Source: Actinocorallia populi (GTDB lineage: Bacteria > Actinomycetota > Actinomycetes > Streptosporangiales > Streptosporangiaceae). From it: a DNA stretch of 64,000 bases. A model generated the notes under the pieces. That model was given only the letters and a program-made list of their open reading frames with translations, was not told the DNA's origin and ran no database searches. Made by a program: the position numbers and the translations under genes. The stretch lies in assembly GCF_002995495.1 (NCBI RefSeq), contig NZ_PVZV01000002.1, forward strand, positions 1,116,001-1,180,000. The letters are read 5' to 3'. Positions 7,074-12,629 of this stretch are shown here, piece after piece. Every line of letters begins with the position of its first letter. Position 1 is the stretch's first letter.

Positions 7074-9351
<2,278 letters not shown>

Positions 9352-9364
9352 CCACCGGGCGCGG

Positions 9365-9397
9365 TAGAGTGGCGTGCCCGCAACACGGCGGGCACGT
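9365..9397 (+). promoter_or_regulatory. Promoter -10 box and 5' hairpin before the his leader
   Basis: A -10-like TAGAGT lies at 9365-9370. It is followed at once by a perfect 9-bp stem (9373-9381 with 9388-9396, loop AACACG). The hairpin may end the riboflavin transcript, or be the 5' hairpin of a new transcript that starts near 9377 and runs through the leader ORF into hisG. Confidence 0.45.
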
Positions 9398-9425
9398 CAT
9401 ACGCGTTCAGCGAGGCAGGGAGGCG

Positions 9426-9515
9426 ATGGTGACCGCGCTCGACACGGTGATCGACCTGCGAGGACCGCGTCACGGGATCCATGCCGGGCATGACGGGGAG
9501 CATCGACGCTCCTGA
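9426..9515 (+). CDS. Putative histidine-rich leader peptide upstream of hisG, 29 aa
   Basis: A short frame starts at ATG 9426 with an excellent GGGAGG site five to six bases upstream. It encodes 29 residues whose second half contains four histidines in about eleven positions (RHGIHAGHDGEHRRS) and ends at TGA 9513-9515, 58 bases before hisG. The His-coding part overlaps small hairpins (CATGCC/GGCATG at 9479-9491; GGAGC/GCTCC at 9497-9512). This is the layout of a histidine attenuator leader. It may instead be a chance ORF. It shows no resemblance to HisE, the gene usually found here in actinomycetes. Confidence 0.4.
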   Translation: MVTALDTVIDLRGPRHGIHAGHDGEHRRS

Positions 9516-9573
9516 CCGTCCACCCGAGAAGTCCCGATAGCGCCGCCACCGGCCATCACTGAAAGGCATCACC

Positions 9574-10449
9574 GTGCTCTCGCTCGTGCTTCCCAAGGGC
9601 TCGCTGGAAAAGGCGACCTTCGAGCTGTTCAACGCCGCCGACCTGACGATCCGGCGCGCCAGCGACCGCGACTACCGCGCGTCCATCGAGGACCCGCGCA
9701 TCGACAAGGTCCGGGTGCTGCGCCCGCAGGAGATCCCGACCTACCTCGAGCAGGGCCTGTTCGACCTGGGCGTCACCGGCCGCGACTGGATCTCCGAGAC
9801 CGACTCCGACGTGGTGTCCCTCGGCGAGCTGAAGTACTCCAAGGCCACCTCCAACCCGGTGCGCGTCATCATGGCGGTGCCCCAGGACGCCCCCTGGCAG
9901 AAGGTCTCCGACCTGCCGGACGGGGTGCGCATCTCCACCGAGTTCCCCGCGCTGACCGACCGCTTCCTGGCCCGGCACGGCGTCAAGGCCAAGGTCGTGC
10001 CGTCCTACGGCGCCACCGAGGCCAAGGTCCCCGACATCGTGGACGTGATCGTCGACCTTACCGAGACAGGCTCGTCGCTGCGCAAGAACGGCCTGCGCAT
10101 CCTGGACACCCTGCTGGTCAGCTACACCGAGCTGGTCGCCAACCGCGAGGCCTACGAGGACCCCGCCAAGCGCGCCGCGATGGAGGACATCGCGCTGCTG
10201 CTGCAGGGCGTCATCCGGGCCCGCGGCAACGTGCTGATCAAGCTGAACGTGCCGCAGGGCCAGCTGCAGGACGTGCTGAACGTGGTGCCCTCGCTGGCGT
10301 CCCCGACGGTCACCCCGCTGGCCGGCGGCGAGATGTTCGCGGTCGAGAGCGTGGTGGCCAAGACCGGCATCAACGAGCTCATCCCCAACGTCAAGGCCGC
10401 GGGCGGCCGCGACATCCTCGAGATCCCGATCTCGAAGATCATCGACTAG
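9574..10449 (+). CDS. hisG: ATP phosphoribosyltransferase (long form)
   Basis: Catalyses the first, feedback-regulated step of histidine synthesis. The 291 aa length is the long HisG type, with two catalytic lobes and a C-terminal ACT-like regulatory domain (about 215-285) that binds histidine. Typical stretches: LSLVLPKGSLEK at the N-terminus, GLFDLGVTGRDW in lobe one, and DVIVDLTETGSSLRKNGL, the PRPP-binding loop, at about 158-175. GTG at 9574 has GAAAGG about eight bases upstream. hisE, the next pathway enzyme, is not next to it. A PH-domain membrane protein follows 11 bases downstream. Confidence 0.96.
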   Translation: MLSLVLPKGSLEKATFELFNAADLTIRRASDRDYRASIEDPRIDKVRVLRPQEIPTYLEQGLFDLGVTGRDWISETDSDVVSLGELKYSKATSNPVRVIMAVPQDAPWQKVSDLPDGVRISTEFPALTDRFLARHGVKAKVVPSYGATEAKVPDIVDVIVDLTETGSSLRKNGLRILDTLLVSYTELVANREAYEDPAKRAAMEDIALLLQGVIRARGNVLIKLNVPQGQLQDVLNVVPSLASPTVTPLAGGEMFAVESVVAKTGINELIPNVKAAGGRDILEIPISKIID

Positions 10450-10460
10450 CGGGGCGGACG

Positions 10461-10892
10461 ATGACCGGCAGGACCTGGCGGCCCCGGCGCACCCGGGTGA
10501 CGGCCTTCGCGATGGCGGCCATGATCATGGCGCTCATGCTCTGGCTCGCCTTCATGATCGCGGACACCTTCAAGCTGGTCGACAGGATCGGCATCGTCCT
10601 GTTCGGCGCACTCGTGGCGGCCATCCTCGCGATGGTCGCCCGGTCGCGCGTCACCGCGGACGAGCACGGCCTGACCGTGGTCAACCCGCTGCGCACCCAC
10701 CGCTACGCCTGGGCCGAGGTGGTGGGCCTGTCCTACGAGCCGGGCGCGCCCTGGCCCTACCTGGACCTGGCCGACGGCACCTCCAAGGGCGTCGTCGGCA
10801 TCCAGGGATCGGAGAAGGCGGCGGCCTGGTCGGCCATCGCGGAGATCCGCGAGCTGATCGCCCAGCGCGGTGAGGCCCAAGAACCTCACTGA
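10461..10892 (+). CDS. PH-domain (bacterial PH) membrane protein
   Basis: 143 aa. An Arg-rich start is followed by two membrane helices (about 14-34 and 40-60). A soluble domain follows from about residue 62 (SRVTADEHGLTVVNPLRTHRYAW), with the strand pattern and conserved aromatic/acidic positions of bacterial PH-like domains (the bPH_6 type). It follows hisG closely, as in other actinomycetes, and is probably co-transcribed. The function is unknown. Confidence 0.8.
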   Translation: MTGRTWRPRRTRVTAFAMAAMIMALMLWLAFMIADTFKLVDRIGIVLFGALVAAILAMVARSRVTADEHGLTVVNPLRTHRYAWAEVVGLSYEPGAPWPYLDLADGTSKGVVGIQGSEKAAAWSAIAEIRELIAQRGEAQEPH

Positions 10893-10902
10893 TCGGGGCA
10901 AA

Positions 10903-10924
10903 ATCAGCGCCCGCACGCGCTGAT
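10903..10924 (+). terminator. Hairpin between the hisG unit and the symporter gene
   Basis: Perfect 8-bp arms ATCAGCGC (10903-10910) and GCGCTGAT (10917-10924) with a 6-base loop. A terminator of the hisG transcript, or an operator for the symporter gene that starts 29 bases later. Confidence 0.45.
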
Positions 10925-10952
10925 CCGCCGCCGCGGCGGGAATGCCAGGCGC

Positions 10953-12629
10953 GTGATCCTTCCCGCCGCGCCGGGCGACGACCTCAGGCTCGACGTCACC
11001 GCCCTGGACTACCTGATTCTCGCGATCTACTTCGCGACCGTGCTCGGGATCGGCTTCGCCGCGCGGCTGACGATCCGCTCCAGCGTCGACTTCTTCCTGT
11101 CCGGGCGCTCGCTGCCGGCCTGGATCACGGGCCTGGCGTTCCTGTCGGCCAACCTGGGCGCCACCGAGATCCTCGGGATGGCGGCCAACGGCGCCCAGTA
11201 CGGCCTGATGACCACGCACTACTACTGGATCGGCGCGGTCCCGGCGATGGTCTTCCTCGGCATCGTGATGATGCCGTTCTACTACCGCTCGGGCGTGCAC
11301 AGCGTGCCGGAGTTCCTGCGCCGCCGGTTCAACTCCGAGACCCAGCTGCTCAACGCGGTGACCTTCGCGATCGCGCAGATCCTCATCGCCGGCATCAACC
11401 TGTACGCGCTGGCGCTGGTGATGCGGGCGCTGGTGGGCTGGCCGCTGCCGGTCTCGGTGGTGGTCGCGGCGGTGTTCGTGCTGGCCTACATCACGCTGGG
11501 CGGCCTGTCCTCGGCGATCTACAACGAGGTGCTGCAGTTCTTCGTGATCGTCGCGGGGCTGGTCCCGCTGGTCGTGCTCGCGCTGATCAAGGTCGGCGGG
11601 CCCGGCGGGCTGGCCGAGCGGATCAGGGCCTCGCCGCTGGGCGAGCCGGGCCTGCACACCTGGGCCGACACCGGCTCGGAGAACAACCCGATGCAGGCCA
11701 CCTGGCTCGGCATCCTGCTGGGGCTGGGCTTCGTGCTGTCGTTCGGCTACTGGACCACCAACTTCGCCGAGGTCCAGCGCGGGCTTTCGGCCAAGAACAA
11801 CACCGCGGCACGGCTCACCCCGATCGTCGCGGCCTTCCCGAAGATCGTCATCCCGGTGCTCACGGTCGTGCCCGGCATGGTCGCGCTGGTGGTGTTCCCC
11901 GCGCTGCGCCAGCCCGGCGCCGACTACAACAACGCGATCCCGATGCTCATGGGCGACCTGCTGCCGAGCGGGGTGCTGGGCGTGGCGCTCACCGGCCTGC
12001 TCGCCTCGTTCATGGCCGGCATGGCGGCGAACGTGTCCGGCTTCAACACGGTGTTCACCTACGACATCTGGAGGGGCCACCTGCGCAAGGGCCGCCCCGA
12101 CGCCTACTACGTGACGACCGGCCGGTGGATGACGGTCGTGGCCGTGGTCGGCGGCATCATGACGGCGTTCATCGCCGCCCAGTACAGCAACATCATGGCC
12201 TACATGCAGCAGCTGTTCTCGTTCTTCAACGCGCCGCTGTTCGCCACCTTCATCGTCGGCCTCGTCTGGCGGAGGATGACGCCCTGGGCGGGCTTCTGGG
12301 GGCTGCTGCTGGGCACGCTGGCCGGCGTCACGTCCTACCTGCTGTACCTGCTCGGACCGCTGGAGGAGGCCTACGGCACGGAGCTCAACGCCAGTTTCTG
12401 GGGCGCGGGCATCGCGTTCACGGTGGACGTGGTGGTCTCCGTCGCGGTCAGCCTGGCGACGAGGGGGACCGCCAAGTCCGACGAGGAGCTGAGGGGCCTG
12501 GTGCGGGGCCTGCCCAGCGACCGGCCCGACGACTTCCACGCCGGCGACGAGAAGTGGTACCGCTCGCCCGTCAAGCTCGGCCTGGGCGCGCTGGCACTGT
12601 CCCTGGCCTGCTACATCCCCTTCTGGTAG
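10953..12629 (+). CDS. Sodium:solute symporter (SSS family, SGLT-like)
   Basis: 558 aa, about 14 membrane helices, the usual SSS length. It begins with LDYLILAIYFATVLGIGF and has the TM1-2 region DFFLSGRSLPAWITGLAFLSANLGATEILGMAA, characteristic of SGLT-type sodium symporters. The loop SFGYWTTNFAEVQRG and the later SGFNTVFTYDIWR also fit. Substrate cannot be read from sequence: a sugar, inositol or carboxylate is likely. The GTG start at 10953 has no clear ribosome site. A 91-aa membrane protein starts nine bases downstream and is probably a partner subunit. Confidence 0.88.
   Translation: MILPAAPGDDLRLDVTALDYLILAIYFATVLGIGFAARLTIRSSVDFFLSGRSLPAWITGLAFLSANLGATEILGMAANGAQYGLMTTHYYWIGAVPAMVFLGIVMMPFYYRSGVHSVPEFLRRRFNSETQLLNAVTFAIAQILIAGINLYALALVMRALVGWPLPVSVVVAAVFVLAYITLGGLSSAIYNEVLQFFVIVAGLVPLVVLALIKVGGPGGLAERIRASPLGEPGLHTWADTGSENNPMQATWLGILLGLGFVLSFGYWTTNFAEVQRGLSAKNNTAARLTPIVAAFPKIVIPVLTVVPGMVALVVFPALRQPGADYNNAIPMLMGDLLPSGVLGVALTGLLASFMAGMAANVSGFNTVFTYDIWRGHLRKGRPDAYYVTTGRWMTVVAVVGGIMTAFIAAQYSNIMAYMQQLFSFFNAPLFATFIVGLVWRRMTPWAGFWGLLLGTLAGVTSYLLYLLGPLEEAYGTELNASFWGAGIAFTVDVVVSVAVSLATRGTAKSDEELRGLVRGLPSDRPDDFHAGDEKWYRSPVKLGLGALALSLACYIPFW

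Follow-up and report, generated by a model that had tools for sequence, protein, structure and literature searches.

In the present study, a histidine-rich open reading frame (ORF) upstream of hisG in Actinocorallia populi was recognized as probably being a ribosome-stalling histidine leader (attenuator) for hisG that descends from the 3′-end of the upstream gene ribH. Sequence comparisons document the homology of the ORF to the ribH tail, its conserved His codons, a retained start site, a conserved hairpin and the repeated release of the element from ribH; they suggest that hisG, the presumed target gene, is regulated by histidine. The window, i.e. the whole stretch of DNA that was analyzed, comprises 64,000 nt of contig NZ_PVZV01000002.1.

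Leader ORF and its surroundings in the window

The features located between ribH and hisG are listed in Table 1. The initial annotation of this region had described a 29-codon frame with four His codons, a ribosome site and a stop codon 58 nt before hisG, and all of these were found as described (stop TGA at 9513-9515, hisG start GTG at 9574). What it had missed is that, in relatives, the upstream RibH carries a homologous stretch at its C-terminus. The likelier start of the leader is GTG 9429 (spacing of 5 to the ribosome site) rather than ATG 9426, because relatives begin at an in-frame GTG.

Table 1. Features of the ribH-hisG region, with positions in the window
Feature	Position	Strand	Remarks
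ribH, lumazine synthase, upstream gene	8872..9351	+	PF00885 (E 1e-47), TIGR00114; no C-terminal His run
TAGAGT, promoter-like −10 box	9365-9370	+	putative; found by eye
Perfect 8-bp hairpin GTGCCCGC/GCGGGCAC	9374-9395	+	directly 3′ of the −10-like box; from sequence
GGAGG, ribosome site of the leader	9419-9423	+	GGAGGCGA..GTG common to fused and split loci
His leader ORF	9426-9515	+	MVTALDTVIDLRGPRHGIHAGHDGEHRRS; 29 aa; homologue of the C-terminal ribH tail in relatives
CGA Arg codon preceding the His codons	9459-9461	+	conserved in relatives' leaders/tails
His codon cluster	9471-9503	+	CAC 9471, CAT 9480, CAT 9489, CAT 9501
P2 hairpin over last His codons and stop	9484..9526	+	fold z = −2.1; outer CGGG/CCCG, middle GACGG/CCGTC (perfect), inner GGAGC/GCTCC
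C-rich spacer, P2 to hisG ribosome site	9527..9560	+	relatives: 44% C, 19% G
GAAAGG, hisG ribosome-binding site	9561..9566	+	from sequence; near-invariant in relatives
hisG, long-form ATP phosphoribosyltransferase	9574..10449	+	TIGR00070, TIGR03455, PF01634, PF08029

Taken by itself, the His cluster departs only moderately from chance: 38 of 3000 dinucleotide shuffles of the gap between ribH and hisG produced an ORF with four or more His in 12 codons. Shuffling is a weak test, and the significance of the cluster is therefore drawn from its conservation. The Rfam search of positions 8000-11500 gave no match up to an E-value of 1, and in the same region neither the covariance model of the enterobacterial his leader (RF00514) nor that of the T-box produced a match.

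Homology of the leader to the RibH tail

The closest hisG relatives were found in Actinocorallia, Actinoallomurus, Actinomadura and Thermomonospora. Comparison of the hisG upstream regions revealed the homology of the leader ORF to the C-terminus of RibH, whose tail in relatives reads ...KGWEATVAALDTALTLRGLRHHGHAGHLSEHLSS up to the stop codon. In the window RibH ends with ...LRELRRSEV and is followed by the separate ORF VTALDTVIDLRGPRHGIHAGHDGEHRRS. After collapsing duplicates, 87 distinct loci of the Thermomonosporaceae clade were available; the His stretch forms the tail of ribH in 73 of them (fused loci) and a separate ORF in the other 14 (split loci), the window included. One split call (L054) is based on the leader alone, as its ribH lies beyond the contig end. 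All 87 loci carry four to six His codons between LRG and the stop codon.

In each of the 13 split genomes with a readable ribH the RHHGH tail is absent from RibH and is retained by the free ORF. Among the 14 split leaders the four His columns are occupied by His in 14, 14, 13 and 14 cases, and a fifth column in 11, with Gly in the three Actinocorallia genomes. The expectation of the initial annotation that the His codons would be conserved in the hisG leaders of relatives was thus borne out at every locus examined, and the 14 free copies keep them while the ribH tails lose them. The N-terminal half that the free ORF inherited from RibH drifts. The reading frame is open in every split leader, the His columns are the most conserved residues even as CAT and CAC vary at some of them, and the tails of Actinoallomurus have extra His added. 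The hisG tree requires seven changes of the split or fused state (six to seven over bootstrap trees), and at least three changes are forced by well-supported branches. In Actinomadura sp. J1-007 (L047) the leader is kept despite 1.9 kb of opposite-strand ORFs between ribH and the leader; these ORFs lie at 573-2094 of that locus (− strand), and one contains an HEFGH motif as in zinc proteases.

The His stretch could also be read as a functional C-terminal tail of RibH, e.g. for metal binding, with the free ORF of the window as a decaying duplicate without a role. The stretch is indeed part of RibH in 73 of the 87 loci. However, split genomes drop the tail from RibH and retain it in the free ORF, which is the opposite of what such a function predicts. 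Moreover, the start site is conserved, as is a hairpin that reaches past the stop codon, the wobble sites are frozen in a way that protein function does not demand, and the element adjoins hisG even when 1.9 kb separate it from ribH. This explanation is accordingly considered very improbable, and selection appears to act on the leader, not on the RibH protein. Derivation from hisE was considered as well, since hisE adjoins the other hisG type in one genome (G003), and was rejected in view of the match between the ORF and the ribH tail. In outgroups with the same hisG type (L020-L030, L079-L087) many RibH proteins end in ...RH, with a lone terminal His codon before the stop.

Conservation at the nucleotide level

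At four- and sixfold degenerate sites of the fused genomes, the fraction of the commonest codon was 0.91-0.93 in the leader stretch versus 0.63-0.71 upstream of codon −26. Along the whole of ribH genes lacking the tail it was 0.56-0.64; this set is more diverse, so that the contrast within the fused set is the fair one. It is only in genes with the His tail that the wobble sites of the ribH 3′-end are frozen. The Arg residue preceding the His cluster is encoded by CGA in all 14 free leaders, and by CGA, AGA or AGG in the tails of fused loci, which are the codons expected to be rare in such genomes; alternatively, the constancy of this codon can be viewed as that of a conserved GAGG/GGGG.

Conservation beyond the coding need, seen in the CGA codon, the near-constant GAG CAT that is part of the inner stem of the hairpin, the wobble sites and P2, would also be expected of a cis-regulatory RNA or protein-binding site of hisG whose function resides in the RNA, with the His codons being incidental. 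Against this stand the frame that is open in every split leader, the start codon and ribosome site that are kept, the His residues that are conserved best while CAT and CAC alternate, and the His codons added in Actinoallomurus. A purely RNA-based element is for these reasons regarded as unlikely, and a translated leader is preferred.

Distribution and transcriptional organization

A sequence model (R1) of the 88-nt core was used to search for the element. Full-length matches with E-values of at most 1e-16 were obtained in 88 out of 343 genomes of the family, and the next best match had an E-value of 1e-8. Several weaker matches 0.2-0.4 kb from the main match in the same genomes are the ribH 3′-end itself. 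Among 395 genomes at class level, the best match outside the family was partial (E 7e-10), and its locus looks like an ordinary ribH 3′-end without a His tail. In each of the 69 loci that were retrieved via the leader only, hisG is located directly downstream. Based on these matches and on the position of the 69 loci, the element is essentially single-copy, tied to hisG and limited to one clade of soil actinomycetes.

The initial annotation had assigned a −10 box of its own to the leader. TAGAGT looks like such a box, and a consensus scan of the window region detected no sigma-70 promoter and no T-tailed terminator. The hairpin that directly follows this box is present in all three Actinocorallia genomes, with longer arms in L002 and L003. 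In split loci TANNNT boxes were found by eye between ribH and the leader, and in one locus (L009) ribH is immediately followed by a T-tailed hairpin. Due to these boxes, this hairpin and the opposite-strand ORFs of L047, the leader and hisG likely form a separate transcription unit in split genomes. In fused loci no clear promoter was found ahead of the leader.

RNA structure

The small hairpins mentioned in the initial annotation were recovered, as GTGCCCGC/GCGGGCAC and as a larger hairpin, P2, which extends over the final His codons and the stop codon. The general layout of P2 is CCGGG-CA-N6-GGAGC-loop-GCTCC-TGA-N3..9-CCCGG. RNAalifold on a MAFFT alignment (A1) missed the outer stem owing to a misaligned 3′ arm, and a structure-guided model was used instead. 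In this model 97.9% of the cells were paired over 81 distinct sequences, compared to 33-65% in slid controls, with the alignment being fitted to the structure and hence leaning towards P2. Four pairs show changes on both sides, and none of 500 shuffles gave as good a structure. When the 3′ arms were swapped among loci, the hairpin became weaker in 1000 of 1000 trials, an outcome largely due to Actinoallomurus and its compensated outer stem GCGGC/GCCGC. When only the CCGGG class was considered, swapped arms did as well in 1 of 1000 trials and, once repeated 5′ arms were collapsed, in 107 of 1000; the middle stem of P2 is hence weakly supported. With regard to the covariation of terminator and antiterminator that had been suggested as a check, compensatory changes were seen in P2, and the candidate upstream antiterminator helix failed. 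This helix, P1, which joins the region of the leader start to the first His codons, folds well, reached 164 of 1000 in the arm-swap test and is not claimed.

Many loci have insertions in the apical loop of P2, some of which contain the stop codon, and both stems are kept. In L012, L043, L056-L059, L069, L071, L078 and others these insertions measure tens of bases, have hairpins of their own and often shift the ribH stop upstream. The distance from the stop to hisG bears on whether the ORF merely couples translation by reinitiation at hisG, with no sensing of histidine. Reinitiation has been proposed at leader ORFs in Actinobacteria (PMC4833913), and a distance of 39-52 nt between the stop and hisG is common. 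The full range here is 39-161 nt with long insertions, against a reported peak at 10-11 bp (PMC4833913), and coupling leaves unexplained why the His codons are the residues kept best. There is accordingly little to recommend reinitiation over a histidine-sensing leader, and its probability is judged to be very low.

Proposed mechanism

When charged His-tRNA is short, a ribosome would stall at the His codons of the leader. A stall at any His codon after the first would cover the 5′ arm of P2 (CCGGG), so that P2 could not form and hisG would be expressed. With plentiful histidine the ribosome would finish and depart, P2 would form and transcription into hisG would be curtailed. In most relatives these His codons would be read by the ribosome finishing ribH, possibly also by another one entering at the internal GTG, and in the window by ribosomes using the leader's own start on a transcript from the promoter-like box. 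P2 may act as a terminator without a U-tract, through Rho or by another route; this output step and the sign of the P2 action are the least certain parts of the model.

The ribosome dependence was predicted by refolding the RNA outside a masked, approximate ribosome footprint. The probability of the P2 outer stem was 0.87 with no ribosome and 0.77 with the first His codon occupied; with a ribosome on any of the second to fourth His codons it was 0. A ribosome halted at the stop codon is predicted to block P2 as well (probability 0), which counts against the model. Control by an anti-Shine-Dalgarno sequence as the main output was discarded, since the predicted exposure of the hisG Shine-Dalgarno sequence is the same in stalled states with or without P2. 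P2 has no U-tract and is followed by the C-rich, G-poor spacer, for which reason Rho or a U-less terminator is possible.

With regard to the hallmarks of an attenuator, the short ORF rich in codons for the pathway product is present in all 87 loci, with ribosome site and start kept and translation predicted, and the compensatory changes in P2 together with the footprint prediction point to a structure that depends on ribosome position. As to mutually exclusive structures that would control termination or the ribosome site, no T-tailed terminator was seen, the alternative helix was not supported, and the predicted Shine-Dalgarno exposure is independent of P2. The His codons are spaced rather than in one run, which likewise speaks against an attenuator.

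Comparison with known systems

The initial annotation had compared the region to enteric his leaders. The proposal of a His-codon leader that regulates hisG is supported by the conservation of the His residues in sequence, while the enteric type of architecture is not. The enterobacterial hisL (RF00514) is likewise a leader peptide with His codons before hisG, at which stalling is proposed to sense charged His-tRNA; the element described here differs in having no run of seven His codons, no T-tailed terminator, no antiterminator that could be shown and no Rfam match. In contrast to hisL, it is derived from ribH and mostly embedded in it, and its hairpin overlaps the His codons and the stop. 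SecM senses export via its specific nascent peptide and controls secA. There, as proposed here, ribosome stalling within the C-terminal region of a longer upstream protein governs the following gene; unlike in SecM-secA, the signal proposed for the present element is the charging of His-tRNA, and the protein that carries it is a metabolic enzyme. Mycobacterial polycysteine leaderless ORFs, reportedly described by Canestrari et al. in 2020 (cited in PMC13236596), are said to tune the downstream operon. They are similar as short actinobacterial ORFs with codons for one amino acid, and differ in being leaderless and in using cysteine, whereas the present ORF retains a ribosome site and stems from the upstream gene.

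Predicted His leaders are known in Proteobacteria and some Firmicutes, where the attenuators of Firmicutes comprise three to five consecutive His codons and terminator/antiterminator hairpins (PMC9413887). These are also His-rich leaders before his genes deduced from comparative genomics; in the present element the His codons are spaced and no terminator was seen. For hisDCB of Corynebacterium glutamicum a T-box-like 5′-UTR with direct tRNA binding and no His-rich ORF was proposed (PMC3896937). RNA control of his genes is thus proposed in both actinobacteria, in our case with a His-rich ORF and no T-box match. An earlier comparative survey covering Actinobacteria had reported no conserved RNA structures ahead of their histidine operons (PMC1262725). 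In the literature that was searched for attenuation together with ribH, hisG, Actinomadura or Thermomonospora no such element was found described; the 2015 proceedings of Korolev et al. on actinobacterial His leader peptides (cited in PMC4833913) lie outside this comparison.

Regarding the histidine pathway, hisE (phosphoribosyl-ATP pyrophosphatase; TIGR03188, PF01503) had no match in the genome of the window (G000) or in 13 relatives with this divergent hisG. It adjoins the other hisG type in G003, and most outgroups with the window-type hisG also lack it. A MazG-domain gene is present where hisE, which acts in the second step of histidine synthesis, has no match.

Implications

Codon-sensing attenuators are a known kind of regulator; the embedding of one in an upstream enzyme gene, and its repeated release from there, were not found described. 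On balance we favor the interpretation that the ribH 3′-end serves as a dual-use leader of hisG, which would link the translation of a riboflavin gene to histidine supply, and that its release as leader mini-genes by partial duplication on several occasions documents a route by which leader peptides originate. The element would provide a candidate histidine control in a group for which the earlier survey found none (PMC1262725), and it lies outside the enteric terminator/antiterminator layout. The origins of leader peptides are rarely traceable because the peptides are very short. Here a single clade contains both embedded and free states and several independent transitions between them, which may open the birth of an attenuator to direct study.
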